IMG/VR virus record: IMGVR_UViG_3300044729_004265
Location: 1-34,667 of that record
Source of the DNA: a virus
Reading direction: 5' to 3' (one strand)
DNA length: 34,667 nucleotides
Of this stretch, positions 16,082 to 33,555 are shown one piece after another; within the stretch, counting starts at the first letter, position 1; each line of letters starts with the position of its first letter. Position numbers and translations under genes: made by a program. The notes beneath the pieces were generated by a model that saw only the letters and a list, made by a program, of their open reading frames with translations, searched no databases and was not told where the DNA came from.

Positions 16082-16552
16082 TCACACCCCCTCTGCGGCC
16101 ATCTCACGGGCCAGGTACAGCAACGCAATGGCATCGGCCTCGTTGTCGTCTGCCGGGCTGTGACCACGGGTACGGACGGATGCCACCATCTCGTCCTTGC
16201 TGGCGTTGCCTTTACCGGTCGCATGCTTCTTGATCGTGCCGACCGGAATGCCCTGGTACGGGATCTGGTGGTGCTCGCACCAGGCGGTCAGCTGGCCCAT
16301 AAAGCCGCCGTAGGCGTGCGCAGCGTCGACACCGACGTGGCGGCGGACCTCTTCGAAGACCACCTGATCAATCCCGTCGTTGAACTGCTTGATGTCGGTG
16401 AGCCAGCGCTTGAAGCGCAGGAAGCGCATGCCGCCGCCTTCGAAGCGTTGGGGTTTGAAGGATTGGCTGCCACTGGTGATGCTGCCGTCGCGGCTTGCCA
16501 GTGCCCAGCCCGTTGAGGTGCCCAGATCGAGGGCGAGGATGGTCGTGTTCAT
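16082..16552 (-). CDS. RuvC-like Holliday junction resolvase
   Basis: A 156-residue RNase H-fold nuclease of the RuvC type. Acidic catalytic residues are visible in order: Asp9 in ILALDLGTSTGWA, Glu67/68 in VVFEEV, and Asp136 and Asp140 in DDNEADAIAL. A TIKKHATGKGNASKDEM stretch matches the basic DNA-contacting region of RuvC-like phage enzymes. It would cut branched DNA made by phage replication and recombination before packaging. The ATG at 16552 follows AAGGA eight bases upstream and overlaps the stop of a small upstream reading frame. Confidence 0.85.
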   Translation of the reverse strand: MNTTILALDLGTSTGWALASRDGSITSGSQSFKPQRFEGGGMRFLRFKRWLTDIKQFNDGIDQVVFEEVRRHVGVDAAHAYGGFMGQLTAWCEHHQIPYQGIPVGTIKKHATGKGNASKDEMVASVRTRGHSPADDNEADAIALLYLAREMAAEGV

Positions 16553-16686
16553 GTTGTCAGTCCTTGTTTGGGTTCGGTCTGACAGATACGACGAGCCATG
16601 TCGTAACTCTCTACACACGCGCGTGACGCGCGGGATATAGTGGTTTCGATAAGACCCGTCCAACCTGTCAGATGGGGTGTTGTCAT
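16549..16686 (-). CDS. Possible 45-residue protein between primase and resolvase
   Basis: An open frame beginning five bases after the primase stop and ending with an ATGA overlap on the resolvase start. That is exactly the junction style of the surrounding genes. The product begins MTTPHLTGWTGLIETTIS and ends RRICQTEPKQGLTT. No family is recognised and the ribosome site is weak. The fit at both ends is the main support. The same bases also hold a promoter candidate, so the stretch could be regulatory instead. Confidence 0.35.
   Translation of the reverse strand: MTTPHLTGWTGLIETTISRASRACVESYDMARRICQTEPKQGLTT
16634..16663 (-). promoter_or_regulatory. Candidate sigma-70 promoter before the resolvase
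   Basis: On the minus strand TTGGAC (16663-16658) and TATATC (16639-16634) are spaced by 18 bases, a fair match to -35 and -10 elements. Just downstream is a GC-rich inverted repeat of CGCGCGT and ACGCGCG near 16617-16632. It would add transcription of the resolvase and two following genes. It competes with the small reading frame drawn over the same bases. Confidence 0.3.
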
Positions 16687-16691
16687 AGCGA

Positions 16692-19037
16692 TCAGTTATC
16701 CGTATACGGGGTGTAGGCAGGCGTCGGTTGCACCTTGAGGCCGATGCCACGAAAGCCGCGAAGGCCAACGCCATTGCGCCATTTCTCCAGCCCGCGGGTG
16801 AGTAGCAAGTCAGCGAAGCGTTTTTGCGAGCCGACGAACTCCCCTGCGGCCTCCGCCCATTGCTTCCAATCCGAGAAGAGCTCTGCCGTCAATGACTTGG
16901 CATTGGGTTCGCGCACACAACGCTCGTCTAGCCATCGGCCAAGAGCATCCTCGCCTTCGAAGTACTCATCCGTGGCATCCAAGACCTGCTGCGGCGGATC
17001 GAGCCGGCCCAGCCGTTGCCAGGCCAAGCAGCCCTCCAGCGCCCAGGCCAGAATCCCGTCGCGTTCAGCGAGCAGCTTTTGCTGCAGGTGCTTGTCACGT
17101 TTTTCGGGTGGCACGGTGATCGTGAACGGAATCAGGTGCAGCCGCCGCTTCATGGCTTCGTCGATGTTGCGGATGGCTGGCTTGTGGTTGCCAGCCACGA
17201 AGAGCTTGAACTGCGGAAAGAACTCAAAGAAGTCCTGGCGCATGAAACGCGCGGAAATCTTGTCGCCGCCGGTCAGGCTCTTGACCTTGGATTCCGCCCA
17301 GCGACGCCCCTGTTCGGTCTCAATGGCCGCCACAAAGCGCGCGCCGCGCAGCCCAGCCATATCCGTGGGATGCCGGTCGGTTCGCGTCTCCATGAAGGTG
17401 TCCATGGGCGCATTGGTCGCGTAGTCACCCAGGATGTCGGCCAGGGTGTTGACGAACACCGACTTGCCGTTGGCCCCGGTGCCGTAGAGGAAGAACAAGG
17501 CGTGTTCGCGGGTCGAGCCAGTCAAGGCGTAGCCCACCATGCGCTGCAGGTAGTCCTGCAGGTTTTGGTCACCGCCTGTCACGTCGTTGAGGAACGCCCG
17601 CCACTGAGGGCACTCGCCTCGGGGTGTGGCCGTGGTGATCTTGGTCATCCGGTCGGCACGCTCGTGCGGGCGCAGACGGCCACTGCGCAGATCGATCACG
17701 CCGCCAGGGGTGTTGAGCAGCCACGGATCGGCGTCCCACTCCTCGGTAGTAGCGGCATGCCTGCGGTCAGCTCGTGCCAGGCGCTCGACACCGCCCACCG
17801 TGCTGGACGCCGCCAGCTTGGAGGCGATGCGCGGGTTGCGGGTGTTGAGTGAGGCGTGCCGACACACGTGACGGATCAGGTCAGTGGCGGCGAGCGTGTC
17901 TTCTGAACGCCAGCGCTGCCCGTCCCAGACCAGCCATTTGCCCCAGCCAGCCACATAGCGCCAGTCCTTGTGGTACCGGCGGGTGAAGGACAGCGCCAGC
18001 GAATCCTCCGTGCCCCAGACCGCCTCCTCAGGTCCGACCGCGTTGGCCAGGGTGTCCGGGTCGTCATCGACCAGGTGCATTTGCATGCGTGGACCGTGGG
18101 CGATGAAACCAGCGACGTCAAAGCCTTCTGCGCGGGCGTCTGCGGCATCCCAGCCCTCGGGGGCGTCCTCCGGCGGGTACAGGATGTGGCAGGTGCGAGC
18201 CCCGGCCATCAGGATGGCTTGCGAGGCACGGTCGGCGTATTCCCAGCCCGGCTTGTCCTTGTCCGGCCAGATCAGTACGACCTTGCCGGCCAGCGGCGAC
18301 CAGTCGGTTTTCTCGATCGGCGCGTTGGCCCCATGCATGGCCGTTGTGGCGCAGATGCCGGTGTCGATCAGGGCCTGGGCTGATTTTTCACCTTCGACCA
18401 GGACGACGGTATCCACCGCCCGCATGCCAGGCTGGTTGTACAGCGGCCGAGGCTCGGGTGGCGCCATCTTGCGTCGCTTGGCGTCCCAAGGCCGGAACTC
18501 CTTCTTGCCGCCGGGCGGGTCGTAGCGGTAGACGACGGCGATCAGCTTGCCTTCGCCATCGAGGTAGTCCCATTTGGCGGTGGCAGGGCCCAGTTCATCG
18601 ACGGGCACGTCTTTTATGGACTTGCGCGCTGTTGCTGGAGCGCGTCCGATGATGTCGGCGCAGCGGGCGAGTACGGCACTGAAATCACCATGGACGTCGA
18701 TGCCAAAGTGGCCGCCGATCAGGTCGAAGATGTCACCACCAGAGTCATCGGCGCGGTCGGTCCACAGACCCGCCTTCTCGCCAGTGAGCACCACTTCCAG
18801 GCTGTCGCCCGGGCTGCCCAAGATGTCGCCGATCAGGAACTTGCCACGCTTGACCTTGCCAGCGGGGAAAAGGCCCATCAGCACCGATTCGAGTCGGCCG
18901 AGCAAAGCGGCACGGACCTCAGCCCGGTCGGATGGCTGGTGTGTGGACACCGGCTGCTGCGCAACCGGTGCATCGTCATTGAAGTCCAGACCCGGTGGTC
19001 CGGCAGGAGGGTGGATGTGTTCTTCTTCTGTGTTCAT
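16692..19037 (-). CDS. P4-type primase-helicase
   Basis: A 781-residue replication protein. The N-terminal part (about 40-130) resembles a CHC2-like or primase-polymerase entry region. A TOPRIM-like core follows with VVLVEGEKSAQALI (about 215) and VVLIWPDKDKPG (about 250). The C-terminal half is the phage/plasmid P4-type superfamily 3 helicase with Walker A GTGANGKS (519-526) and a following Walker B region around FVAAIETEQ. It would prime and unwind DNA at the phage origin. The ATG at 19037 overlaps the nuclease stop (ATGA). The C-terminus carries the peptide VQPTPAY, also present in the SSB-like protein. Confidence 0.88.
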   Translation of the reverse strand: MNTEEEHIHPPAGPPGLDFNDDAPVAQQPVSTHQPSDRAEVRAALLGRLESVLMGLFPAGKVKRGKFLIGDILGSPGDSLEVVLTGEKAGLWTDRADDSGGDIFDLIGGHFGIDVHGDFSAVLARCADIIGRAPATARKSIKDVPVDELGPATAKWDYLDGEGKLIAVVYRYDPPGGKKEFRPWDAKRRKMAPPEPRPLYNQPGMRAVDTVVLVEGEKSAQALIDTGICATTAMHGANAPIEKTDWSPLAGKVVLIWPDKDKPGWEYADRASQAILMAGARTCHILYPPEDAPEGWDAADARAEGFDVAGFIAHGPRMQMHLVDDDPDTLANAVGPEEAVWGTEDSLALSFTRRYHKDWRYVAGWGKWLVWDGQRWRSEDTLAATDLIRHVCRHASLNTRNPRIASKLAASSTVGGVERLARADRRHAATTEEWDADPWLLNTPGGVIDLRSGRLRPHERADRMTKITTATPRGECPQWRAFLNDVTGGDQNLQDYLQRMVGYALTGSTREHALFFLYGTGANGKSVFVNTLADILGDYATNAPMDTFMETRTDRHPTDMAGLRGARFVAAIETEQGRRWAESKVKSLTGGDKISARFMRQDFFEFFPQFKLFVAGNHKPAIRNIDEAMKRRLHLIPFTITVPPEKRDKHLQQKLLAERDGILAWALEGCLAWQRLGRLDPPQQVLDATDEYFEGEDALGRWLDERCVREPNAKSLTAELFSDWKQWAEAAGEFVGSQKRFADLLLTRGLEKWRNGVGLRGFRGIGLKVQPTPAYTPYTDN

Positions 19038-19771
19038 CGATTCGTGTTCCAGCAACGCTCTGCCCACGCGCAGAACTTGCATTCAAAGTGGTTGGACTCG
19101 GCAAAGCTACGTGGCAGCAGCTCGCCTGCTTCGGTGGCCTGGATGACCTTGACGGCTCGGTCGGACATGCGCTGGGCCAGTCCTGCATCGAAGGGAACCA
19201 GCTCGGCATAGATCTCCATCGTGTCGGCGTTGACCGCCGTGAAGAGCGCGGGATGCTCGTGCAGGGTCAGGTAGCTCTGGTAGACGGCGATCTGGGCGGC
19301 GTAGACGGGCTTGGCCACGGCCAGCTTGTGTTTCTGCAACTCGCGCCAGGACTTGGCGCCCAGGCACTTGTTTTCCCAGAGCGCCGGATAGGCAAAGCCC
19401 TCCGGGCCGCCCACCAGCACGCCATCAACGTGTCCACGCAGACGGCCCTGGGCCACGCTGAAGCCGAACTGCCGACCATCGGCATCCTCGGTTTTGAGGA
19501 TGAAGCCGGCCATGCGCAGCCAGCGGATGACCATGGCTTCGGTCTGGTGTCCGCGCTCGAAGATGCGCAGTAACCGGCCCGAGAACCCCTTGCCGGGGTC
19601 CACCGGTGCCTGCGCATACTCGAACTGCAACTGCCGCTCGCACGACACACCCAAGCGGGAGCCGCCCAGGTATTGGCGCGGCGGCGTGGCATCACGCTCT
19701 TGCTCCAGGGCAAGGTCCACCAGCGCCTCGATCTGGCCGGAGAGACTGGCCGATGCGTTGAAGTCCAGCAT
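19034..19771 (-). CDS. PD-(D/E)XK exonuclease with Fe-S-like cysteines
   Basis: A 245-residue RecB/Cas4-type nuclease. The catalytic signature is spread over GHVDGVLVG and ALWENKCLGAKSW, giving the acidic residues and Lys of the fold, and an AAQIAVYQSYL helix matches the QxxxY motif of RecB-like nucleases. Cysteines in SCERQ near residue 43 and the C-terminal CKFCAWAERCW set resemble the 4Fe-4S cluster of Cas4/AddB proteins. It probably resects DNA ends for single-strand annealing with the neighbouring ATPase. Start ATG 19771 forms TGATG with the upstream gene and follows GGGAG. Confidence 0.78.
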   Translation of the reverse strand: MLDFNASASLSGQIEALVDLALEQERDATPPRQYLGGSRLGVSCERQLQFEYAQAPVDPGKGFSGRLLRIFERGHQTEAMVIRWLRMAGFILKTEDADGRQFGFSVAQGRLRGHVDGVLVGGPEGFAYPALWENKCLGAKSWRELQKHKLAVAKPVYAAQIAVYQSYLTLHEHPALFTAVNADTMEIYAELVPFDAGLAQRMSDRAVKVIQATEAGELLPRSFAESNHFECKFCAWAERCWNTNR

Positions 19772-20232
19772 CAAGACGTCTCCCAAGGCAGATCGCTTTC
19801 CAAATCGGCGAAGGGATCGTCGACCGTGGGTTTCAGGCCGCGCACCGGTGGGTACTTGACCTCAGCGTGGTGGGCCACCATGGCTTCGGTGTAGCGGGTG
19901 ACGATCGCATCAATCACCTGTAGGGCCTCCTTCTCGGAGTAGGCACCCAGCGGCTTGTCGAATCCGATGTCACCAGCCGCCTCACCGAAGGCGCGCAGGC
20001 AGGAACGCATGGCCGAGCGTTCAATGTCTGTGGCATCAATCATCTCGACCTCCTGGTTGAACCGTTGTGCATCGACCCAGTTGCCGTACATCCGATGAAA
20101 GACGTCTTGGCACTGCCGGCTGCAAAACACCCAGTCCAGCGGGTAGCGCTTGGCATTCCCAATCGGGTGTCGGTTGTCGGTGTGTCCAAGCCCGCGCGCT
20201 TGGCGCGAGCACACCCAGCATTTGCCTCGCAT
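19771..20232 (-). CDS. DUF6511-like zinc-binding protein
   Basis: A 153-residue protein with an N-terminal zinc-finger-like region: CWVCSRQARGLGH followed by a VFCSRQCQDVFH motif (about 5-50). The cysteine pairs and FCSRQCQ are typical of treble-clef fingers, and the protein fits DUF6511 as I recall it. The rest is helical with an acidic end (DDPFADLESDLPWETS). The ATG at 20232 has GGGAGG eight bases upstream; an in-frame GTG at 20250 overlapping the previous stop is the alternative. It sits in the recombination/replication block, suggesting a DNA-related accessory role. Confidence 0.6.
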   Translation of the reverse strand: MRGKCWVCSRQARGLGHTDNRHPIGNAKRYPLDWVFCSRQCQDVFHRMYGNWVDAQRFNQEVEMIDATDIERSAMRSCLRAFGEAAGDIGFDKPLGAYSEKEALQVIDAIVTRYTEAMVAHHAEVKYPPVRGLKPTVDDPFADLESDLPWETS

Positions 20233-20246
20233 GCATGGCGCCTCCC

Positions 20247-20927
20247 TCACTGAGCCCAGGCGGGCTTGCCGGTGGTCACCACAGGGCGCGCCTGTGGGGC
20301 GGGCTGCGCATAGGCAGGGGTAGGTTGCACTGGCGCGCCAGAGTGGCCACCACCGCCCCTGTGGCCGCCGCCTGCGGGGGACATGCCTGTCAGGGGGACG
20401 TAGTCCTTGTGGTCTGGCTCGATAGCGACCTTGACGACGTTGCGGTCCTCGCCTTTGCCATCCTTTTCGACATCGACGCGGGCCAGGAACTCGATGCCGT
20501 CTAGATCGGCAAAGCTGTTGATGCGGCGGGCGGCTGCCGCCTGGGGCGAGTTATCCTGCGGCTGGACGTTGCGCGCGCTGTTGAGCACTGCGCGGATGAA
20601 GCTGCGCCCCATCTGGCCCCAGGTTGGGCCCTTGGGCGAGTGCAGACCGACGTTCGACCACATCTTGCGTTTGGCAAAGGGGCCATCGGTGACGACGAAC
20701 TCGCAGGCAAGGTAGACCGCCCCGGTGTCGAATGACTGGGTGGCATAGCCGCCGGTCCAGCCTTGGGTGTGGTCATCATAGCCACCGGGCTTGATAGTCA
20801 TGCGCACGGGCACGGAGATGCCGCGCGGGATCAGGTCAAAGCCACCTTGCTGGGTTTCGGCGTCGTTGAAATCGTTCCAATTGTTCGAAAGTGCGGCAGG
20901 AGCCGTGGCGTGGTCATAGGTGTTCAT
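20247..20927 (-). CDS. SSB-like protein (DUF669-type)
   Basis: A 226-residue protein next to a Sak4-like ATPase, the usual partner of phage single-strand binding proteins. Residues 40-160 show a beta-rich pattern with VYLACEFVVTDGPFAKRKMW and SNVGLHSPKGPTWGQMGRSF, like the OB-fold DUF669 proteins. The tail (about 175-226) is Gly/Pro/Gln-rich and disordered (GGGHRGGGGHSG), as in SSBs, but ends GKPAWAQ rather than in an acidic tip. ATG at 20927 follows AAAGGA. Role in coating single-stranded DNA is inferred from fold pattern and context. Confidence 0.6.
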   Translation of the reverse strand: MNTYDHATAPAALSNNWNDFNDAETQQGGFDLIPRGISVPVRMTIKPGGYDDHTQGWTGGYATQSFDTGAVYLACEFVVTDGPFAKRKMWSNVGLHSPKGPTWGQMGRSFIRAVLNSARNVQPQDNSPQAAAARRINSFADLDGIEFLARVDVEKDGKGEDRNVVKVAIEPDHKDYVPLTGMSPAGGGHRGGGGHSGAPVQPTPAYAQPAPQARPVVTTGKPAWAQ

Positions 20928-20938
20928 GGGATGTCCTT

Positions 20939-21766
20939 TCAATTCGTGTGTTCGGTGTTGGGATTGGCGGTGGGTGTCTGGCCGAGGCACTTGGCGATGA
21001 GCCGACCCAGATGGGGTTCTTCGATGGGGTCCAGGCGGCCACTGCGGTCTTTGCTGGGGAAGCCAAAGCTGTTGTCCGCCCCCGTCACAAAGCCCCTGTA
21101 GGTCGAGCCGTCGTCGGCTTTGAGCACGGCCAGCGTCACCACTTCATCGAGCACGCCGGGCAGTTCCAGCGCGGTCTTGCTGCCTTCGAGCTGCAGCTGG
21201 TAGTAGCGGCGGTTGAAGTCGTCGGTCTTCTCTTCCAGGATCGCGACGTAGATGACGTGCTTGTCCCGCACGTGCTGCAGGTGCGTGAGCGCCGTGATCA
21301 TTTCCTGACCCAGCAGGCCGTACGCTCCCCGGTTGTCAGGCTTGCCGGTCTTCTCGCTGAAAGCCTGTGGCTGGGTTTTGCACCAGGCCAGGCACAGACG
21401 TGAGAGGACAGTCAGGCTGTCCACAAAGTAGGTGTCGTACTTAGCCAGTTGTGCGGGATCGCCGTAGGTGGCGCAGACATGGTCGTAATGCGCTTTGCTG
21501 AAGGCCTGGTCAGCCGATGCGGTCGGCATGGGCCCTGCGAGGAAGACCACAAGGTCACGGAACTCCTGCCAAGTGCGCGGGCGCACCGTGTCACCCGGCC
21601 AGTCCTTGACCGAGAGGTCGCCGGCTTCGAGATCCACGAACAAAGTGGACTTGGGCGGCAGGGTTCGCAACTGCGTGGTCTTGCCCACGCCAGGAAACCC
21701 CACCAGGCCAACCTTGGCGCTGTGCCGTTCTTTGAGCCGTTCTTCGGCGGAGATGATGGGCAACAT
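20939..21766 (-). CDS. Sak4-like RecA-type ATPase
   Basis: A 275-residue nucleotide-binding protein (AAA_24/Sak4 type). Walker A is GFPGVGKTT (residues 23-31). The strand TLFVDLEAGDL follows, and the Walker B-like strand is KYDTYFVDSLTVLSR. A later GAYGLLGQEMITALTHLQ helix and HVIYVAILEE strand complete the RecA core. Sak4 proteins stimulate annealing of single strands during phage recombination, with SSB as partner. ATG at 21766 shares its A with the upstream stop; the GTG one codon earlier is the alternative. The gene ends 11 bases before the SSB-like gene. Confidence 0.8.
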   Translation of the reverse strand: MLPIISAEERLKERHSAKVGLVGFPGVGKTTQLRTLPPKSTLFVDLEAGDLSVKDWPGDTVRPRTWQEFRDLVVFLAGPMPTASADQAFSKAHYDHVCATYGDPAQLAKYDTYFVDSLTVLSRLCLAWCKTQPQAFSEKTGKPDNRGAYGLLGQEMITALTHLQHVRDKHVIYVAILEEKTDDFNRRYYQLQLEGSKTALELPGVLDEVVTLAVLKADDGSTYRGFVTGADNSFGFPSKDRSGRLDPIEEPHLGRLIAKCLGQTPTANPNTEHTN

Positions 21767-22311
21767 CACTGTGCTCCTTCACCGGCCGATGGCTTGCGCA
21801 AGGTGAACTTTGCTGCCTTGGGCTTGACCGTGCGCGCGGCCATGAAGGGCTGGCGAAACATCTCGGGCCAGGCCTTGAAGCGGGATTCGCTGACGCTGTA
21901 CTTGGCAGAGATGAATTCGGTAGGATCCTGGCCGGCTGCGACCATGCGGCTCCAGATGGCTTGCAGCTCCTTCTGATCCCAGGACACGTCTTTGCTGACC
22001 TCGACGGTGACATCGAAGTCGCCATCGATGACGTGGGTGGTACCGGTGTCCTTGTTGTCCGCGAGCAGCTGGGCCTTAGCCTGTTCGCCGTAGCGCATGT
22101 CCAGACCCACCTGGATCATGTTGGACAGCGCTGCCAGTTCGGACTTCGCCGCTGCCTCGAAACGCTTGAGATCAGCCACATGGGTGAGCGGCAGTTCACG
22201 AATGACCGTGGCCGATAACTCCATAAATGGGACGGGCAGTGAAATGCCGCTGCGCTGAAAGGCCGCCTCGAGCGCCGAGGATTCGGCGGTGGTTGTGGTG
22301 TGCGTGCTCAT
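21766..22311 (-). CDS. Hypothetical protein of the recombination operon
   Basis: A 181-residue protein that I do not recognise. An N-terminal Ser/Thr/Ala-rich lead is followed by helices with a regular heptad look (HVADLKRFEAAAKSELAALSN), which may form a coiled coil, then a beta-like DGDFDVTVEVSKDVSWD segment. The C-terminus is basic. It starts with an ATGA overlap and ends one base into the Sak4-like gene. Its place just ahead of Sak4 and SSB suggests a recombination accessory role. Confidence 0.6.
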   Translation of the reverse strand: MSTHTTTTAESSALEAAFQRSGISLPVPFMELSATVIRELPLTHVADLKRFEAAAKSELAALSNMIQVGLDMRYGEQAKAQLLADNKDTGTTHVIDGDFDVTVEVSKDVSWDQKELQAIWSRMVAAGQDPTEFISAKYSVSESRFKAWPEMFRQPFMAARTVKPKAAKFTLRKPSAGEGAQ

Positions 22312-22520
22312 GCGGCCACCGCCTTGCTGGTGCTGGCACGCATGCTGTCTTCCTCAAAAGCACGGATGTCTTCGAGGCGATAGCGGACCTGGCCGCGAAG
22401 TTTCAGAAAGATGGGGCCAATGCCCTCAGCACGCCACCGCTCGATGGTGGATTCACTGAGTTGCCAACGCTCTGCCAGCTGACTCTGTGAGATGTGTGTA
22501 ACGGTTTCGGACGCTTGCAC
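22308..22520 (-). CDS. Small HTH protein (excisionase / MerR-like)
   Basis: A 70-residue protein with a winged helix-turn-helix: SQSQLAERWQLSESTIERWRAEG then GPIFLKLRGQVRYRLEDIRAFEE (in outline, residues 10-55). This is the HTH_17/AlpA-excisionase pattern. A GTG start at 22520 is used because AAGGAG lies six bases upstream; an ATG at 22562 has no such site. As first gene of the early operon it could be an activator, a replication regulator or the phage excisionase. With serine integrases excision needs a directionality factor, so that role is worth testing. Confidence 0.65.
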   Translation of the reverse strand: MQASETVTHISQSQLAERWQLSESTIERWRAEGIGPIFLKLRGQVRYRLEDIRAFEEDSMRASTSKAVAA

Positions 22521-22614
22521 GTGAATCTCCTTGATGGTTAATGGGCCCTGGTTTGAGGCCACTTGGGAGCGGCGCTAACCAGTGCTGGCATTGCATCAAT
22601 CGAGATTCCACAAA

Positions 22615-22715
22615 ACGTTCTGCAGATTCTGCAGAAACGTTCTGCAAAACCGTTTCGTGCTGCATAAACGCTCTGCAAGACGTTCTGCAAGTGCTATTTG
22701 GGTTGTGCAGAACGC
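22615..22715. repeat. Iteron-like array of ACGTTCTGCA
   Basis: Copies of ACGTTCTGCA occur at 22615-22624, 22637-22646, 22668-22677 (one T to C change) and 22680-22689. Partial copies lie near 22626-22634 and 22656-22664, and an inverted copy at 22706-22715. The array lies between the repressor operon's terminator and the early operon's first gene. Candidates are operators for the early promoter or an origin with iterons. The GTTC within it matches half of the repressor operator at 25634-25645. Confidence 0.65.
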
Positions 22716-22750
22716 AAAAAAAACCCGGCCTGCGTTGTGCGGGGCCGGGT
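22716..22750 (-). terminator. Intrinsic terminator of the repressor operon
   Basis: ACCCGGCC (22723-22730) and GGCCGGGT (22743-22750) form a perfect 8 bp GC-rich stem with a 12-base loop. On the minus strand it is followed by eight T. It lies 39 bases after the stop of the last gene in the repressor operon, so it ends that transcript before the repeat array and the early genes. Confidence 0.85.
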
Positions 22751-22788
22751 CATCTGAAGGGGTAAAAGGTGTGCGGCTTGGGGGCGGA

Positions 22789-23766
22789 TCAGTGCAACCA
22801 GTCACGATCGCCTTCGGGGATGATCAGCGCATATTCCTTGTCGCCAAAGATGTACCTGATGAAGGTTTTGTAGACCAGCGGATTGCGCCCGAAGAATTTG
22901 ATCGGGGCAAATCGCTCGGCATCCGAGCCACAGGCATCGCGCAGCGCGCCACCCTCCATCCGGTGGTCAAAGTCGTCGATCAGCGCCAGCAGAATGTTGG
23001 CCTGCATCGCCTCCAACGGATAAGCCACGCCGTTGATGTAGGCATTGCGCTCGGAGCGGATATACCGCAGCGTCGTACCCCGATCCGTCGCCGAATCATG
23101 CACTTGGTACACCGCCGTCGGCTCCATAACCCGATTGGCAAAGAACTCGAAGCGGTTTTGCGAGACGCGCATCAGATCGGCCAGATGCACCACCTCGTAC
23201 TGCGCCACCGGAGAACTGGCGGGCAGTGGCACCGGACTGCTGGTCAAGATGCGCGCACTGCGCTCGGCACGGTGGCCGCTCAAATGGATCAGCAGCTTTT
23301 GAGCTGTGGTGTCACGGTTGAGGTGGCGCGCGAAATACAAGGTGACCGGCTTTCCGCGCCGCTCCTCGATCAAGCCCATGCGCCAGGCCAGGTCGGGCAC
23401 CAGGCACTCGACCTGATGCCGGTTCAGATCCAGCCCCGTGGCCAGATGACCAACCACTCGCTCGACGTTGACCACCGTGGTTTGGCGCACGCTGCGTGGC
23501 GCCTCGAAGTCTTCACAGTCACCGCCGCACAGCAGGAGCACCTTGTCATCGGGCAGCTCACGCACCACGCGTGCCATGTCATCACGGCACTCTGGGCATT
23601 GCAACCAGTTGAGTGGCTCACCAAAACCCACCAGGTGTTCACGCCTCAGTTGCGCCAGAGCGTCCTGATTGCCCGGGTCAGACAACAGCGGCCCTGAGAT
23701 TTCCTTGGCGGTACTCTCCAGCATCCGGCACAGCAAGGCTGTGGCCTCGATCTGCGTCTGGCTCAT
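22789..23766 (-). CDS. Unknown protein with zinc ribbon, third gene of the repressor operon
   Basis: A 325-residue protein of unknown function. A zinc-ribbon-like set is clear: Cys57, Cys60 (LQCPECRDD), Cys80 and Cys84 (LLLCGGDCEDFE). The rest is mixed alpha/beta, with a HLADLMRVSQNRFEFFANRV helix and an IRSERNAYINGVAYP strand pair. There is no signal peptide or membrane segment. It overlaps the second gene by four bases and is followed by a strong terminator. Being made together with the prophage repressor, it should be expressed in the lysogen. An immunity, exclusion or regulatory role is possible but unproven. Confidence 0.7.
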   Translation of the reverse strand: MSQTQIEATALLCRMLESTAKEISGPLLSDPGNQDALAQLRREHLVGFGEPLNWLQCPECRDDMARVVRELPDDKVLLLCGGDCEDFEAPRSVRQTTVVNVERVVGHLATGLDLNRHQVECLVPDLAWRMGLIEERRGKPVTLYFARHLNRDTTAQKLLIHLSGHRAERSARILTSSPVPLPASSPVAQYEVVHLADLMRVSQNRFEFFANRVMEPTAVYQVHDSATDRGTTLRYIRSERNAYINGVAYPLEAMQANILLALIDDFDHRMEGGALRDACGSDAERFAPIKFFGRNPLVYKTFIRYIFGDKEYALIIPEGDRDWLH

Positions 23767-25007
23767 GCCGCCGCACCGGTCGACTCGACGATGCCCAGGC
23801 TGCGCATCACACACTGCGCCAGTTGCTGATTGCGGTACGACAGGTTTTTGATGGTGGTCGAGCCGCTGGCGTAGACGTCGAAACTGAAGTGGCCCTCACG
23901 GCTGCTTTCCTGGTCACGGGTGTAGACCATGAGCGTGGCCCGGTCCATTTCGAATTCGCTGTCGAAAGAGTGCGCCACTTTCAGTTTGTCGCGGGCTACA
24001 CAAATAGCGTCTTCGCGATTGGCTTCGGGGCTGGCTTCGATCTGGATGGCACTGCTGCGTTGGTCGGCTGGCGTGAACTTGGCCCGGCGCAGTCGAACCT
24101 TCTGGATGCCTTGGGTGGACCAGTCTTCCTTCGGCGCCAGCAGTCCGTCGTTCAATACGCTGAGTTTGAACCGACTGGGCGTGATCGCCTCGGGCTTCAA
24201 TTCGGTCTTGGCCAGATGCTTGGCAAACAGGGTGAGGACAGCGGCGTGGTTTTTGGCACCACCCTTGACCACGGTTTCCACCACGCCCGATTTGGGGTGG
24301 TAGACCAGTGCGTTTTCCAGGGCGACGCGGGTAGCGATGCGCTTGAAGTCGTGTTTGCGAAACTGAGCAATGGCTGTGATCGGCCCCTCGACGTACAGCG
24401 TGAACTGGATGCTGCCATCGGTGCCGTAGCGACTGACCTCGATGTGTGAGCCGATCCCGCCGCCGGATTTCTGATACAGCGCGGCCACGTCCCGCTTGAA
24501 CGCCTCAAGGGACTCCTGATCCAGGTGCGGCACGAGGTTGGGAAGGATCTGGCTGGGTTTCCATGACCGGCCATGGGTCTTGGCCCGAAACGCCAACCGC
24601 AGTTCGATGTCCCGAAAGACCTGTTCGTGGTGGGCAAGCATCCACAACGCTTGCTCGCGTGGATCCATACCGTGGAGATGTTCCAGTGCGCCGGCGTCAT
24701 GGGCCAGTACCAGCGCAAACTCCCGGGCACCGGTCTCCGTGCCGGTGATGTGGGCGCGTCGCAGGTCTTCGTTCCACCGGAACAGGTTTTCCTCGAGGGT
24801 GACTTTTTCAGCCGTGGTCAAGGCGACGTCTTCGAGCAGTTGGGCCTGCAGGTCTTCGACGGCGTCGATGAGTGCATGGGCCAACTTCGCTTCTGGCAAC
24901 GCCCAGTCGACTGCCAGGTGCACACCCAAGGGATGGGCTTGCACAAAGTCCTGCAGGACGGTCGACGCGATGTGGCGCAAAAAGTGGCGGGGATTGAAGA
25001 TTTTCAT
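23763..25007 (-). CDS. Unknown 414-residue protein, second gene of the repressor operon
   Basis: A large soluble protein that I cannot place in a family. It begins MKIFNPRHFLRHIASTVLQD behind a strong GGAGGAG site, 23 bases after the repressor stop. The N-terminal 170 residues are helix-rich with LHGMDPREQALWMLAHHE. The middle (about 195-290) shows beta strands such as SIQFTLYVEG and a conserved-looking KGGAKNHAAVLTLFAKH. The C-terminal third alternates charged strands and helices (EFEMDRATLMVYTRDQE). Shared transcription with the repressor and zinc-ribbon protein suggests the three form one functional unit in the lysogen. Confidence 0.7.
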   Translation of the reverse strand: MKIFNPRHFLRHIASTVLQDFVQAHPLGVHLAVDWALPEAKLAHALIDAVEDLQAQLLEDVALTTAEKVTLEENLFRWNEDLRRAHITGTETGAREFALVLAHDAGALEHLHGMDPREQALWMLAHHEQVFRDIELRLAFRAKTHGRSWKPSQILPNLVPHLDQESLEAFKRDVAALYQKSGGGIGSHIEVSRYGTDGSIQFTLYVEGPITAIAQFRKHDFKRIATRVALENALVYHPKSGVVETVVKGGAKNHAAVLTLFAKHLAKTELKPEAITPSRFKLSVLNDGLLAPKEDWSTQGIQKVRLRRAKFTPADQRSSAIQIEASPEANREDAICVARDKLKVAHSFDSEFEMDRATLMVYTRDQESSREGHFSFDVYASGSTTIKNLSYRNQQLAQCVMRSLGIVESTGAAA

Positions 25008-25030
25008 TGTTGGGCTCCTCCAGGGCTGGG

Positions 25031-25615
25031 TTACGTGTATCGCCGCACCAGACCCACCACCACTCCGAAGATCTCCAGCTTGCCGTTGGGACGTATGACG
25101 GGGTACTCCGGGTTGGCCGGGATGAGGTGGTAGCCCTCCTGATCCCGACCGAGGGTCTTGAGGGTGAACTGGTCGTCGACCACGGCCACGACTTGTTCGC
25201 CCACGTTGGCGTTCTTGCGGCGCTCCACCACGGCCAGATCGCCGTTGTGGATGCCTGCGTTGATCATGGAGTCGCCCTTGACCCGGATGAGCACGGTCTC
25301 GCCGGGATCCTGGATCAGGAATCGGTCGATCGTCATCTGCTCGACCCCGTCATCCAAGGTGGTAACAGGCATGCCGGCCGGCACGGGTTCGTTGGCCACC
25401 ACTCGTTCGAAGAACCGCTCGGTGGGCGCCCAGTCTCCGTCGGGGGTGCGCTCCAGCATACCGGCGGTCTCCAGACGCTCGAGCACCTTCTTGACAGCCG
25501 ACTTGGACGCATAGCCCAGGATTTCCATCAGCCGGGCGTAGGACGGCAGCACTCGGTGCTGGGCGTAGTAGCGCTGCAGGGTCGCCAGATGTTCGTGATC
25601 GTGGAGGGCTTTCAT
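25031..25615 (-). CDS. LexA/CI-like S24 prophage repressor
   Basis: A 194-residue self-cleaving repressor. The N-terminal 65 residues form a winged helix with LPSYARLMEILGYASKSAVKK (about 23-43). The C-terminal S24 peptidase domain has the Ala80-Gly81 cleavage site (PVPAGMPV), nucleophile Ser116 (VKGDSMINAG) and Lys153 (TLKTLG). The 37-residue Ser-Lys spacing equals that of E. coli LexA. It should hold the prophage silent until RecA-stimulated self-cleavage after DNA damage. ATG 25615 is chosen because the longer frame to 25654 runs back through the promoter. Two unknown genes follow in the same operon. Confidence 0.9.
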   Translation of the reverse strand: MKALHDHEHLATLQRYYAQHRVLPSYARLMEILGYASKSAVKKVLERLETAGMLERTPDGDWAPTERFFERVVANEPVPAGMPVTTLDDGVEQMTIDRFLIQDPGETVLIRVKGDSMINAGIHNGDLAVVERRKNANVGEQVVAVVDDQFTLKTLGRDQEGYHLIPANPEYPVIRPNGKLEIFGVVVGLVRRYT

Positions 25616-25625
25616 GATGAGCTTG

Positions 25626-25654
25626 ATTATAGAGAACGTACGTTCACTATGCAA
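25626..25654 (-). promoter_or_regulatory. Repressor promoter with internal palindromic operator
   Basis: On the minus strand TTGCAT (25654-25649) and TATAAT (25631-25626) are spaced by exactly 17 bases, a strong sigma-70 promoter. Inside the spacer is the perfect palindrome GAACGTACGTTC (25634-25645), of the form GAAC-N4-GTTC. This is the core of the LexA box of Gram-positive bacteria. The -10 element lies ten bases before the ATG, so the mRNA would have almost no leader, like lambda cI from PRM. The repressor very likely controls itself here and may also control the divergent plus-strand genes. Confidence 0.75.
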
Positions 25655-25820: not shown

Positions 25821-26027
25821 ATGAACGATGTCAACCAGACCCCGCCCGACAAGATGCGTACCGATGAACGCCTCGACGAAGTGGCCCAGTTGCTGGCCAG
25901 AGGCCTGCAGCGCCTGCGTGCGGCACATGCCCACGGCAGTGACGAAAAGAGCGCGTTAGGACTTGGCTTTTCTGGCACCCAGCGCCTTCATACGGACACG
26001 TTCAACGAAGTCACGGAGTCCCATTGA
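25821..26027 (+). CDS. Small protein before the DUF2924-recombinase unit
   Basis: A 68-residue hydrophilic protein, MNDVNQTPPDKMRTDERLDE at the start, with a helix DEVAQLLARGLQRLRAAHAHG. The ATG follows CAGGAG. The next gene's ATG shares its A with this stop, so the two are coupled. The short size, a single helix and context suggest an accessory to the recombinase; I do not recognise a family. Upstream, 25655-25820 has no gene; it contains a CTGCG-T7-CGCAG hairpin near 25700 but no clear plus-strand promoter. Confidence 0.6.
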   Translation: MNDVNQTPPDKMRTDERLDEVAQLLARGLQRLRAAHAHGSDEKSALGLGFSGTQRLHTDTFNEVTESH

Positions 26028-26521
26028 TGAGCCCCTCGTCCCCCTACGCCACGCCACCGTCGGTGCTGGCCCAAATCACCGCGCTGCCAGACCTATCCAT
26101 GGCGGACATCAAAGCGCTCTGGCAGGAATTGTTTGAAGAGCACACACCCACCCACAACCGCCAGTTCCTGGAGCGGCGGATTGCTTACCGGTTGCAGGAA
26201 ATCGCCTTCTGCAAGGTGGACCGGCATCTGATGGACCGCAACAAGCGCCGAATCCAAGCCATCCTGGAGACTGGGCGCAACACACAGGACAACCGCGACG
26301 CGCCGCTGATGGCCGGCACCGTGCTTGTTCGCGAGCACCAAGAAAGGGAACACCGCGTGATGGTGTTACCGGATGGCCAATTCGAATACGAAGGGCGGCC
26401 GTACCGCAGCCTGTCGCGCATCGCACGTGAAATCACGGGCACCGCATGGTCAGGACCGGTCTTTTTTGGGTTCAAAATCCAAGCGAAAGCCAAAGACAAG
26501 AAGAAGGGAGCGCGCGTATGA
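26027..26521 (+). CDS. DUF2924 protein
   Basis: A 164-residue protein with a clear DUF2924 pattern: DIKALWQELFEEHTPTHNRQFLE and RRIAYRLQEIAF in the first half, then GTVLVREHQEREHRVMVLPDG and FEYEGRPYRSLSRIAREITG, ending with SGPVFFGFK (given in parts). DUF2924 genes are regularly found beside large serine recombinases in proteobacterial prophages, and may assist recombination as a directionality or accessory factor. The function is not established. Start at ATG 26027 inside TTGATGA; the end overlaps the recombinase by four bases. Confidence 0.8.
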   Translation: MSPSSPYATPPSVLAQITALPDLSMADIKALWQELFEEHTPTHNRQFLERRIAYRLQEIAFCKVDRHLMDRNKRRIQAILETGRNTQDNRDAPLMAGTVLVREHQEREHRVMVLPDGQFEYEGRPYRSLSRIAREITGTAWSGPVFFGFKIQAKAKDKKKGARV

Positions 26522-27876
26522 GCGATGCATTCAAACGCCGGCAGCGCTGCGCCGTGTATTGCCGCGTATCCAGCGACGAGCGCCTGGACCAGGCTTTCAA
26601 TTCGATCGATGCCCAAAAGGAAGCAGGTCACGCTTATGTGGCCAGCCAGCGCAGCGAGGGCTGGATTCCGGTGGCCGATGACTATGACGACGGCGGTTTC
26701 TCTGGCGGCAACATGGAGCGTCCTGGACTGCGCCGTCTGATGCTAGATATTGAGGCTGGCAAAGTCGACATCGTGGTGGTTTACAAAATCGACCGTCTAA
26801 CCCGCAGCCTGGCGGATTTCTCGAAGATGGTCGAGGTGTTCGAGCGCGCTGGTGTGTCCTTCGTGTCCGTGACCCAGCAGTTCAACACCACCACGTCCAT
26901 GGGCCGGTTGATGCTCAACGTCTTGCTGTCATTTGCACAGTTCGAACGCGAGGTCACCGGCGAGCGGATCCGAGACAAGATTGCGGCCTCCAAGCGCAAG
27001 GGCATGTGGATGGGTGGCGTGCCGCCCTTGGGCTACGACGTCGAAAATCGCCGCCTGATCCCCAACGAACGGGAAGCCAAAATCGTCCGGCACATTTTCA
27101 AGCGGTTTGTGGAGCTGGGCTCCGGGACCAAGCTGGTGAAGGAGTTGCAGCTGGACGGTCTGACATCCAAGTCGTGGACCACCCAGGACGGCAAGCAACG
27201 CGAGGGCAAGCTGATCGACAAAAGCTTGATTTACAAGGTCCTGAGCAACCGCACCTACCTGGGCGAGTTGCGGCACAAAGATGCGTGGTTCAAGGCCGAA
27301 CATCAACCCTTGATCGAGCTGAGCACATGGGAAGCCGTTCAGTCGGTCTTGCAGGTGAGCCCACGCGTGCGCGCCAACAACACCCGTGCCGCCATCCCTT
27401 TCCTGCTCAAGGGCATTGTCGAGGGTGCCGACGGTCGGGCTCTGACAGTGGCCTGGACACGCAAGGGATCCGGGCGGCTGTACCGCTATTACATGCACAC
27501 CCGCGAAAACAAGGAATATGCTGGCGCATCCGGACTGCCCCGGCTGCCGGCCATCGAACTGGAGGGCAATGTCATTGACCAAGTGCGGCAGATTCTGCGC
27601 GCTCCGGATCTCAAAACCAGGGTGGCCAAGGTCATGCATGCACTGGACCCAAGCATTGACGAAGCGCAGGTGTGCGTGGCCATGCTGCAGATCGACAAGA
27701 TCTGGGATCAACTTTTCCCGGCGGAGCAGGAACGCATCGTGCGCCTGTTGATCAAGAAGGTGATCGTCACGCCGCACACCATTGAGGTCCAATTCCGGTC
27801 GAACGGGATCGAAATCCTAGCGACCGAGATGTTGGTCAAGGAACGCAAGACCCAGGCGCAGGAGGTGGCAGCATGA
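26518..27876 (+). CDS. Large serine recombinase (first copy)
   Basis: A 452-residue resolvase/invertase-type recombinase. The catalytic domain (about 10-155) has CAVYCRVSSDE with nucleophile Ser18, and VVYKIDRLTRSLADF. The recombinase domain (about 175-290) includes PPLGYDVENRRL and SNRTYLGELRHKDAW. A long C-terminal part with an IWDQLFPAEQERIVRLLI helix and a late coiled-coil follows. It would integrate or excise the element between short att sites. ATG overlaps the DUF2924 stop (ATGA) and follows GGGAG, and the end overlaps the HTH gene by four bases. Four genes thus make one integration module next to the repressor. Confidence 0.9.
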   Translation: MSDAFKRRQRCAVYCRVSSDERLDQAFNSIDAQKEAGHAYVASQRSEGWIPVADDYDDGGFSGGNMERPGLRRLMLDIEAGKVDIVVVYKIDRLTRSLADFSKMVEVFERAGVSFVSVTQQFNTTTSMGRLMLNVLLSFAQFEREVTGERIRDKIAASKRKGMWMGGVPPLGYDVENRRLIPNEREAKIVRHIFKRFVELGSGTKLVKELQLDGLTSKSWTTQDGKQREGKLIDKSLIYKVLSNRTYLGELRHKDAWFKAEHQPLIELSTWEAVQSVLQVSPRVRANNTRAAIPFLLKGIVEGADGRALTVAWTRKGSGRLYRYYMHTRENKEYAGASGLPRLPAIELEGNVIDQVRQILRAPDLKTRVAKVMHALDPSIDEAQVCVAMLQIDKIWDQLFPAEQERIVRLLIKKVIVTPHTIEVQFRSNGIEILATEMLVKERKTQAQEVAA

Positions 27877-28304
27877 CGGGGGTCAATATCAAGCCCATCG
27901 GCGATGCCGATATTGCTACGGCCAGCAACGGCAGCTACCACGTGACCATCCCGATCAAGATCACACGGCGTGGTCGGCGCAAGGCGGTCACGCTACCGGA
28001 CGGCACCGCCTTTAAGCCACGCGCCTGGGACCGGGACCCCACGCCCATCCAACTAGCGCTGGCCAGGGGGTATCAGTGGCTGGGGTTGCTGGAATCAGGC
28101 AAGGCGAAAAATCTGTCGGAGGTTGCCGAGCGAGTCGGCATGGACCGAGCCTATGTCAGCAGGATGGTGAATCTGACCACGCTGGCGCCAGACATCGTAG
28201 CGGCCATCCTGGACGAGTCACTGCCCAACCACGTGACGCTGTTTGATCTGGCGTCGGGCACGCCGCTGCTGTGGGATGAGCAACGGAAGCTGCTGGTCTT
28301 ATGA
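27873..28304 (+). CDS. HTH protein of the recombinase module
   Basis: A 143-residue protein coupled to the recombinase by an ATGA overlap. The first half is beta-like and basic (HVTIPIKITRRGRRKAVTLP). The second half has a helix-turn-helix with KAKNLSEVAERVGMDRAYVS followed by RMVNLTTLAPDIVAAILDES, similar to the ParB/KorB recognition region. DNA binding is therefore likely. Genes of this shape commonly follow DUF2924-associated recombinases. It may direct recombination or regulate the module. The Thoeris genes converge on it only 72 bases beyond. Confidence 0.7.
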   Translation: MTGVNIKPIGDADIATASNGSYHVTIPIKITRRGRRKAVTLPDGTAFKPRAWDRDPTPIQLALARGYQWLGLLESGKAKNLSEVAERVGMDRAYVSRMVNLTTLAPDIVAAILDESLPNHVTLFDLASGTPLLWDEQRKLLVL

Positions 28305-28471
28305 TTTTCAAAGCCCAGCACAACGGGTTTTTGGAGTGCTTGATTGCCCGTATCTCACAGCTTAGTAAGCCAAAGTCTAGTACCCCGCCTGGGTTGCTGC
28401 GGCTTCGATCCACCCCTCAATCTTCTCGTGCGCGTTGTTTGTCCAGCTATGAATTGAGAAAAACTCGCTGA
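28301..28471 (+). pseudogene. Possible truncated gene at the Thoeris junction
   Basis: An ATG at 28301 overlaps the HTH stop (ATGA), the junction style of this module. It opens MIFKAQHNGFLECLIARISQ and then runs antisense into thsB until a stop at 28471. The first 25 codons lie outside thsB. This may be the remaining 5' end of a fourth module gene cut when the defence genes arrived. No family is recognised and chance is a real alternative. Confidence 0.25.
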
Positions 28472-28976
28472 GGGCGGTACAGCCGACTGGTGGTAGATTG
28501 TTTGTGTACGGCCAATCTTCCAATTCCAGCTTGCCAAAGTCGGACGTATAGGTCCACTTGTCGTCCACCGACTTGCGCTCGACCACCTGGAGCACGTCAT
28601 CTTTGCGGTAGACCCCGAGAAGGTTGAAAGGGTTATCCCCAGCTGCTGCCGTCTTCCCATCGAAATCGGCAATCGAGTGAACCCTGACACCTACAAGGCC
28701 GCGACCATCGCACAACGCCTGCAAAACTTCAAATCGCACCCACCGCCGTGAAGCCGTTTCAGCACCCACCAGGACACAGACCACGCTGGTACCCTGCATT
28801 TCCTTTCGCAAGAAACGCTTCAGTGCAGCGGGATCGTCTTTCTTTGCTTTCTCGAACGCAGAGGCATCGTAGAACCCAGCCTCTCCATGATCTTTGAAAA
28901 ACTGTGATTTACGTACTACCTGTGCGCGCTGAACATCAGGCTTGTAGTGAAAGCTAAAAAATGTTTTTCTCGCCAT
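28377..28976 (-). CDS. thsB: Thoeris ThsB, TIR-domain sensor
   Basis: A 199-residue protein of the TIR-like DUF1863 family. The start RKTFFSFHYKPDVQRAQVV, the middle TSVVCVLVGAETASRRWVRF with the likely catalytic Glu83 (RFEVLQAL), and GRGLVGVRVHSI / DNPFNLLG are the family's hallmarks. In Thoeris, ThsB senses phage infection and converts NAD into a cyclic ADP-ribose isomer that activates ThsA. It lies 36 bases downstream of thsA in the same direction. No good Shine-Dalgarno sequence is seen. Base composition is visibly more AT-rich than the phage genes, suggesting separate acquisition. Confidence 0.9.
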   Translation of the reverse strand: MARKTFFSFHYKPDVQRAQVVRKSQFFKDHGEAGFYDASAFEKAKKDDPAALKRFLRKEMQGTSVVCVLVGAETASRRWVRFEVLQALCDGRGLVGVRVHSIADFDGKTAAAGDNPFNLLGVYRKDDVLQVVERKSVDDKWTYTSDFGKLELEDWPYTNNLPPVGCTALSEFFSIHSWTNNAHEKIEGWIEAAATQAGY

Positions 28977-29012
28977 GTCAATTAGTGTGTGTGTGCGTGT
29001 GATGCCTGATAC

Positions 29013-30443
29013 TCACCTGCTGAGGCGTTGGACAATGTTAATAACGTGTTTTACCAATTCATCCGACTTGAGGTCCTTGCGCCCCAATTGCTTGATGATC
29101 GGCACGATCCAGTCTTCTATACCTGGGTAGTATCTGACAGGGTCCTTAAGCACCTCTTCCCACAACTCCCTGGCCGCGTAGCCAGTCGCGCCGATAGGAA
29201 TGGGCACCAGTTCGTGTTCGATAGCGATTTGAAATTCGCGGTGAACACCGTTAGCTGGAACCACATTGCGCGCATCGTCAAGCTTGTTGCCAAACACGAA
29301 GATCGCGACACCTGCGAGGGAAATCATTCGCTGACGATACTGTTCCCACAACTCCTTCAGATTGTCGCCGTGCTGTGGGAACGGCCTCACGATCAGTTGA
29401 TCTTCAGAAAATTTCTGCGGGTTTCCGTAGATGGCATCGAGAGCTCCGTTGATGACGGCACTACCAACCCCCCAGCCGAACCCATTAACCACCCGGCTGT
29501 TGAGATTCACGCATCCCTTCGACAGGTTGTGTACGAGGTCGAGGGCTGTCTGACGATCCCAGTCACCGTACTCTTCGGCACTCCCCGAGAAGAATACCGT
29601 CCTTTTCCTGAACCTGCTCTCAATGAGCTTCATGATGCGGGGGATATCACCGTAGTCTGCGACTAGCAGCGTCTGAATTCCGAAGCGTTTCAAATCATTA
29701 ACTCTAAGCTCCTGGCGACGCTCCTCGAGAGCTTGGTCCTCCGGATTTTCAGCGACGACAGCTTTCATGATGCAGTAGTGCGTACGCTTAGCCTTGCCGT
29801 AGATGTGCAGGCGACTTAGGACATAGTCTAGGTTGGGATCACTGAAGCTAAAGCCGATAAACAGGAAGGTCTTCGAAACGAGGTCTCCTAGCAATGCGGT
29901 GACAAACGGTGCCCGCTCAACGTGGTAACGCTCGTATTGCTCCTTGTACAGCACTGCTGAGGTCGAATCCGATACGTCCCCGTGCATCTTGTAGACCACC
30001 GCATCTCGTTTGGGCTTGGTGCTTGTGAGCTGCTGAATATTGTGCTTCACGTCAGCAACGCGAAACGCTTTGCGCAATGCGTCCTCGATGAGCGTGTCGT
30101 AGTTGGTCGTCCAGTAAGTGCCTACAGGGAGACGTGCAATGACCTCGTGAACTTCCGATGGCTCTGCATGCTCGCTGAACTCTTGGAGGATTTTCTTGGC
30201 AAGTCCGTCCGAATTGCCGCCTCGCTGGTTGACGTGATACTGAGCCACTGCGATTAGGTCGTGTTCTAGCTTAATATCCAAACCCAGTTCTTGCGCAATG
30301 TCGGCCAAAAGCTCGCGCCAATCCACATAGCCAACGGCTTTGGACATGCCTGCACCTGCAAAAATAGCAGCAGTGTCGCCCTGTAACTCGAGCACGTACG
30401 CTTTAATAAAGGCATCGATTTCGCGGTCAGGTGTAATAAGCAT
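29013..30443 (-). CDS. thsA: Thoeris ThsA, SIR2-SLOG NADase effector
   Basis: A 476-residue protein, the same length as the studied Bacillus cereus ThsA. Residues 1-280 are a SIR2 domain with FAGAGMS (28-34), TTNYD with catalytic Asn114, and VYKMHGD with catalytic His154. Residues 281-476 are a SLOG/STALD sensor with RTVFFSGSAEEYGDW, a GFGWGVGSAVI loop, IFVFGNK (Lys387) and EFQIAIEHE (Glu403), near the known ligand-binding positions. When the ThsB product binds SLOG, SIR2 destroys NAD and the infected cell stops supporting phage. It is the first gene of the two-gene system. Its ATG has only a weak ribosome site. Confidence 0.92.
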   Translation of the reverse strand: MLITPDREIDAFIKAYVLELQGDTAAIFAGAGMSKAVGYVDWRELLADIAQELGLDIKLEHDLIAVAQYHVNQRGGNSDGLAKKILQEFSEHAEPSEVHEVIARLPVGTYWTTNYDTLIEDALRKAFRVADVKHNIQQLTSTKPKRDAVVYKMHGDVSDSTSAVLYKEQYERYHVERAPFVTALLGDLVSKTFLFIGFSFSDPNLDYVLSRLHIYGKAKRTHYCIMKAVVAENPEDQALEERRQELRVNDLKRFGIQTLLVADYGDIPRIMKLIESRFRKRTVFFSGSAEEYGDWDRQTALDLVHNLSKGCVNLNSRVVNGFGWGVGSAVINGALDAIYGNPQKFSEDQLIVRPFPQHGDNLKELWEQYRQRMISLAGVAIFVFGNKLDDARNVVPANGVHREFQIAIEHELVPIPIGATGYAARELWEEVLKDPVRYYPGIEDWIVPIIKQLGRKDLKSDELVKHVINIVQRLSR

Positions 30444-31676: not shown

Positions 31677-31740
31677 GACCATGTCAGCTTCCAGCCGCCA
31701 AGCGAGCTTCATGAAGCACTGGATCTGAGATCATTCAGTG

Positions 31741-33479: not shown

Positions 33480-33555
<76 letters not shown>

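Follow-up and report, generated by a model that had tools for sequence, protein, structure and literature searches.

We analyzed a viral DNA of 34,667 nucleotides (positions 1 to 34,667 of the IMG/VR record IMGVR_UViG_3300044729_004265, hereafter the window), in which a LexA-like S24 repressor and two proteins of 414 and 325 residues, here called A and B, are encoded in that order as one operon on the minus strand. We favor control of lysogeny exit over exclusion of other phages as the function of this operon, and consider that it probably forms a two-tier exit switch of a temperate phage governed by DNA damage. In the first tier, an autocleaving LexA-like repressor bound to a single operator in its own promoter would keep the repressor-A-B operon low. 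In the second, DNA damage would act through RecA to bring about repressor cleavage, and A and B would accumulate; B would then bind, via a winged helix, four repeats upstream of an operon with excisionase-like, recombination and replication genes (the exit operon) and, together with A as a DNA clamp of the RdgC/RexA fold, may turn that operon on. Our computations demonstrated a conserved operon, a single operator within the promoter spacer, the predicted folds of both proteins, and a constant pairing of A with B that extends to fusions.

The putative B sites are four octamer repeats of the form TGnnGAA (TGCAGAAC, TGCAGAAT, TGCAGAAC and TGTGGAAT; 22605-22646, minus strand), whose starts are 13, 9 and 12 bp apart and which lie between the terminator of the repressor operon and the gene for an 84-residue excisionase-like HTH_17 protein (22308-22562, minus strand). 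This gene is the first of the proposed target operon, the rest of which (16082-22311, minus strand) encodes phrog_2480, a Sak4-like annealing protein, proteins of unknown function, a primase-helicase and a RuvC-like resolvase. The repeat block scored 42.0, compared to 28.5-31.5 in shuffled sequences, with no second block in the window, and its 13/9/12 bp spacing was exact in every one of the 26 LexA-type entries compared, of which some are nearly identical. A first reading as 11-bp tandem repeats was dropped in favor of this spacing, and a coding frame across the block was rejected, as by eye there was no third-position bias and relatives had no matching start codon. Among relatives the copies shift together (TGCAGAA, TGAGGAA, TGTGGAC, TGAGTAA), with octamer versions TGCAGAAC, TGAGGAAT, TGTGGACT (locus L016) and TGAGTAAT (L020), while the repressor operator stays GAACGNNCGTTC; for this reason the repressor was rejected as the reader of the repeats.

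Variable columns of six proteins (A, B, the repressor, the excisionase-like protein, and the integrase and ParB-HTH protein of the neighboring integration operon) were compared with the repeat class. Only 3 of 1,132 such columns determined it: two with 7 and 9 states, which are uninformative, and residue 293 of B (G, D, E or L), which within A and B is the only variable column to do so. The predicted recognition helix carries this residue in the segment KFFGRN, KEFDRI, KQFDRN or KEFLRN. In a tree of A and residues 1-225 of B, with the winged helix left out, repeat class and B293 each changed 4 times and their joint label also changed 4 times; the two sets of changes therefore coincide. None of 20,000 label shuffles reproduced the association. 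The sister locus of the window, L016 (A 93% and B 87% identical), has D293 and GG-type repeats, and the L055 group, though distant (B 43%), combines G293 with CAGAA-type repeats. Two loci outside the fit, both close to fitted loci, agree: L002 has D293 with TGTGGACT, and L062 has G293 with TGCAGAAC. Furthermore, the integrases (57%) and ParB-HTH proteins (28-30%) of L003 and L016 are equally distant from those of the window and the repeats of the two loci differ, which speaks against either protein as the reader. On the basis of this covariation, B very probably reads the repeats upstream of the phage's own exit operon, and we regard it as a probable regulator of that operon. As a separate observation, extra DNA, probably cargo genes, lies between B and the repeats in L016 (12228-12900), L020 (12204-12900) and G226 (C1:1252383-1253500); in all three the repeat block and excisionase-like gene are intact.

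Neither A nor B matched a Pfam, NCBIfam or PADLOC family and PDB sequence searches with both yielded nothing usable, which agrees with the initial annotation, made from the letters alone, that both were unrecognizable. The zinc-ribbon pattern it had seen in B (22789-23766, minus strand), Cys57/60/80/84, is present in full, being conserved in seven close homologues and nearly invariant among 45 sequences. In the predicted structure (pLDDT 85), an N-terminal zinc ribbon is followed by a middle domain and a C-terminal winged helix (~230-317). The C-terminus matched OmpR/ToxR/CadC-type DNA-binding domains with VIA Z of 6.4-7.4 in the top rows, mostly over 82-91 residues, and CadC with a Foldseek probability of 0.99. 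These Z values are middling, yet nearly all top rows belong to one domain type, and weak sequence-profile matches of B to response-regulator domains agree with a winged helix. B is therefore modeled here as a predicted zinc-ribbon protein with an OmpR-type winged helix. For the middle domain (~100-215) the structure search gave no confident fold match; a faint match to EndoMS (E 0.024) was set aside, no nuclease motif being seen. A viral structure search with B returned no significant match.

Protein A (23763-25007, minus strand), whose stop codon is overlapped by the ATG of B, had a single family match, to phrog_37634, of unknown function. Its predicted structure (pLDDT 85) shows two TBP-like domains behind a helical N-terminal part. 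The best structural match was Escherichia coli RdgC (2OWL; Foldseek E 2.2e-5, probability 1.0), with VIA Z 9.9 and a root-mean-square deviation of 5.6 over 221 residues at a sequence identity of ~10%, followed by CENP-L, CENP-N/Chl4 and Iml3 (VIA Z ~8-9.6). A is thus predicted to have the RdgC/CENP-L/CENP-N fold. It has been previously reported that the crystal structure of RexA has a fold in common with RdgC, IML3 and CHL4, and that RexA is a DNA-binding protein that shifts the lambda switch toward the lytic state (PMC11077077). By hhalign, the probability was 1.1% for A against four RexA sequences and 0.15% for A against RdgC, RdgC against RexA gave nothing either, and A had no PF15969 or PF04381 match; therefore only the fold connects the three proteins, and we file A in neither the RexA nor the RdgC family because it has no sequence-profile similarity to them. 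RexA was not among the matches listed for A in the structure search, and absence from such lists excludes no family. The comparison with lambda rex has a structural basis in the modeled fold.

The initial annotation had grouped both genes with an S24 repressor into an operon that has a single promoter and ends at a strong terminator, and all of this, coordinates included, was confirmed. The 194-residue repressor (25031-25615, minus strand) matched Peptidase_S24 at E=2.7e-25 and LexA_DNA_bind above the cut-off in a profile search, scored 98 of the 111 bits required by the LexA equivalog cut-off, which it did not reach, and, as read from the sequence, has the cleavage site Ala80-Gly81, Ser116 and Lys153 at the expected places. 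The single promoter (25654-25626), also read from the sequence, consists of a -35 element TTGCAT (25649-25654, minus strand), a 17-bp spacer and a -10 element TATAAT (25626-25631, minus strand); a consensus promoter scan of the window did not pick it up. In most relatives, as comparison of repressor homologues revealed, the -10 is preceded at 17 bp by a TTGnAN-like hexamer. Inside the spacer is the repressor operator, the perfect palindrome GAACGTACGTTC (25634-25645, minus strand), and the operon ends at an intrinsic terminator (22716-22750, minus strand; -20.2 kcal/mol, z -2.7) that runs into a stretch of 8 U.

In viral contigs, a palindrome of the type GAACN4GTTC, nearly always GAACGNNCGTTC, preceded the repressor gene in 21 of 21 homologues, and in most of them TATAAT or TACAAT followed within a few bases. 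The operator is the sole site at 0-1 mismatch in the window. Across 80 kb with two related prophages there were 2 perfect operators, one per repressor promoter, and five one-mismatch sites, which is near chance by our estimate; perfect operators thus occur once per element, and none precedes the exit operon. Of four whole genomes searched with a longer promoter pattern, three had 1-2 sites each and one had none. The promoter of the repressor operon appears to be self-repressed via its spacer operator, and the operator counts suggest that the repressor appears to control little beyond its own operon. With so few operators, any effect of the repressor on phage exit would therefore run via A, B or the divergent operon. 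The initial annotation had argued, with lambda rexAB as the example, that genes coexpressed with a repressor function in the lysogen; self-repression and the operator counts weaken that argument, since from a promoter built in this way A and B are expected to be low in the quiet lysogen and to rise on induction. The arrangement is like that of LexA-regulated operons, with an autocleaving repressor on its own operon and an operator within the promoter, but the operator here is GAACGNNCGTTC and not CTGTN8ACAG, the usual LexA box in these bacteria.

A survey of how widely the trio is conserved, which the initial annotation had proposed, found A and B behind 19 of 21 repressor homologues by BLAST and A, by profile, behind the other two. 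Seven viral contigs encode both proteins together, and those of them that reach far enough all include the repressor; iterated profiles recovered 112 A and 111 B reading frames in the collected loci. A was found in 32 of 399 genomes drawn from the order and 14 of 369 from the class, the related genomes being beta-proteobacterial (Limnohabitans, Gallionella, Ferriphaselus, Nitrosospira). Because a viral scan with the neighboring DUF2924 protein gave nothing, genomes were used to survey that gene, and by our own count A was present within ~12 kb at 34 of the 50 full-length DUF2924 places. Where one genome had copies of A 52-70 kb apart, those followed in G226 and G243 looked like neighboring prophages or a duplication. 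In G243, 11.9 kb are identical between C1:1238000-1249905 and 1305431-1317336, 67 kb apart, as in a tandem prophage or an assembly artefact.

The repressor beside A-B takes several layouts: LexA-like in the same operon, XRE with ImmA/IrrE (Peptidase_M78) divergent from A-B, or a one-strand order XRE-ImmA-A-B. The last was seen in L193 and L195 and in L188 (8534-12443), where an excisionase-like gene follows and B has no zinc cysteines. In addition, A and B are fused into proteins of 740-853 residues beside serine recombinase genes in L192 (3435-5681), L184 (8456-10678) and L187 (4776-7337), and no S24 or XRE-ImmA repressor was seen near the L187 fusion. The 748-residue L192 fusion matched the A profile at 40-408 (1e-19) and the B profile at 498-704 (1e-8), and gp6 of the Acidithiobacillus phage AcaML1 is 71.5% identical over 97% of this L192 protein. 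Like the fusions, gp6 lies near recombinase genes, but it is annotated as hypothetical only, with no S24 repressor annotated beside it. In tblastn searches of phages and plasmids A and B themselves found nothing, and only the fused form of this distant relative matched AcaML1. Given varied repressors and a constant A-B pairing, the core that stays more constant is A-B, and the repressor can be exchanged. More tentatively, at slightly less than even odds, we suggest that the A-B pair may represent phage switch factors of two proteins whose family is so far undescribed. A, a clamp of the RdgC/RexA/CENP-L-N fold, would be loaded at specific repeats by B, its zinc-ribbon/winged-helix partner, and serine-integrase prophages of a large group would use the pair with interchangeable repressors (LexA-like, XRE with ImmA, or none). 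In the XRE-type prophages L123, L143, L145, L147 and L152, the position that the four repeats have in the window, ahead of the excisionase-like gene, is taken by TGGCGAAC / GTTCGCCA repeats, and in L146, of a third group, by TTGCCCACC repeats.

The constant neighbor of A-B is a divergent integration operon (26024-28304, plus strand) encoding DUF2924, a serine integrase and, behind it, a small ParB/SopB-HTH-like protein (27873-28304, plus strand) with weak SopB/ParB HTH matches; the AcaML1 gene at the matching position bears the annotation 'site specific recombinase small subunit'. Capsid, portal, protease and terminase genes give the window, a virus record, a temperate-phage setting. A second serine integrase of the same integrase family (31738-33144, plus strand) adjoins a tRNA-Phe (33480-33555, minus strand), possibly marking a second element or an attachment site, and between both integrases are two genes of unknown function for 199 and 476 residues (28377-30443, minus strand; phrog_6988, phrog_2695). 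Two adjacent ParB-methyltransferase fusion genes are found at 11941-13221 and 13632-15056 (minus strand).

Several observations weigh against the proposed exit switch. The fitted loci are related and four coordinated changes are few; the deepest B relatives have no four-cysteine pattern; in XRE-type prophages the repeat arrangement is another one, with one copy forward and two in reverse, and A-B is directed away from the exit operon, adjoining the element's end. Moreover, the exit-operon promoter is assumed, no good -10 being recognizable after the repeats. A TTG hexamer adjoins the block, with the repeats upstream of it as for activator sites, and such a hexamer with no good -10 is as expected of an activator-dependent promoter. 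B could also repress instead of activate: with or without A, it would then keep the exit operon silent in the lysogen, as a second repressor, until removed by induction. The repeats are near the expected promoter position, and in L187, and also L184, the fused A-B is the sole recognizable regulator between integrase and excisionase-like gene. We nevertheless judge this unlikely, as A and B would rise on loss of the LexA-like repressor and the exit operon would shut on damage, and the position upstream of the hexamer is activator-like.

Exclusion of other phages or abortive infection had been suggested in the initial annotation. We consider such a role of the Rex type, with A sensing foreign phage DNA, B as effector and both active in the lysogen, quite unlikely, although exclusion may occur as a side activity. 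The gene order repressor, RexA-fold protein, second protein is that of lambda cI-rexA-rexB, RexA binds DNA and has the RdgC/IML3/CHL4 fold (PMC11077077), and a RexAB-type defense pair of Pseudomonas putida lies downstream of a CI-like repressor (PMC12894663). However, there was no PADLOC match, A has no profile similarity to RexA, and A-B belongs with a single lysogeny module and was absent from plasmids by tblastn. The window also differs from lambda in that A has 414 residues with an extra helical part and in that there is one operator, with self-repression. B is not RexB: it is a soluble protein with no membrane segment (maximum KD19 1.06, compared to 2.39 for RexB, a membrane channel), no PF15968 match, and a predicted OmpR-type winged helix, and this predicted DNA-binding protein covaries with repeats upstream of the phage's own excisionase-like operon. 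The pointer to lambda rexAB thus stands for the fold of A and fails for B. A phage arbitration system, the other role suggested there, comes close to the lysis/lysogeny role favored here.

We find it very unlikely that the repeats are origin or partition iterons, to which B would bind as initiator or adaptor, with A as a DNA clamp, so that the two would serve replication or segregation of the phage after excision and not transcription. Consistent with such a role, the repeats precede a primase/recombination operon, the fold of A is common to DNA-encircling RdgC and centromere-binding CENP-L/N, and two ParB-type proteins are encoded nearby; against it, the repeats stay at a nearly fixed distance from the gene start in every relative keeping them, and the phage has its own primase-helicase. 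Least credible is that A is an RdgC-like RecA inhibitor that damps SOS and limits repressor cleavage in a negative feedback: A is made together with an autocleaving repressor and, according to Drees 2006 as cited in PMC11077077, RdgC lowers RecA activity and RecA-dependent LexA cleavage, but this accounts for neither B nor the repeats, profile comparison does not link A to RdgC, rdgC is already present in the hosts tested, and A-B also occurs where there is no S24 repressor.

For the proposed DNA-damage-controlled exit switch, the closest known logic is that of SXT/R391 elements, in which a two-protein factor, SetCD, activates xis and int from boxes at or just upstream of weak -35 elements and is kept in check by the CI-like repressor SetR, believed to undergo cleavage by RecA*; SetC and SetD have been compared with FlhC and FlhD (PMC4344509). 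As there, a repressor-held two-protein factor would act upstream of a xis-like gene, in our case as suggested by covariation. The likeness is one of logic and not of family: no FlhC or FlhD Pfam match was found in A, B or the listed homologues, and here repressor and factor share one self-repressed operon. The initial annotation's expectation of something undescribed is borne out for the protein families in the working parts, whereas the relay logic is known from SetR-SetCD.

Our analysis would place two unnamed protein families in a working circuit, with an operator and a specificity residue. If A-B is indeed a family of switch factors used with interchangeable repressors, the RexA/RdgC fold would gain a general role in deciding exit from lysogeny, and the fold used at the eukaryotic inner kinetochore a phage relative. 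A SetR-SetCD-like relay built from unrelated parts would represent convergent design in mobile elements. Finally, a RexA/RdgC-fold protein tied to excision control suggests that the long-debated lambda Rex proteins may be part of a wider class of switch proteins.

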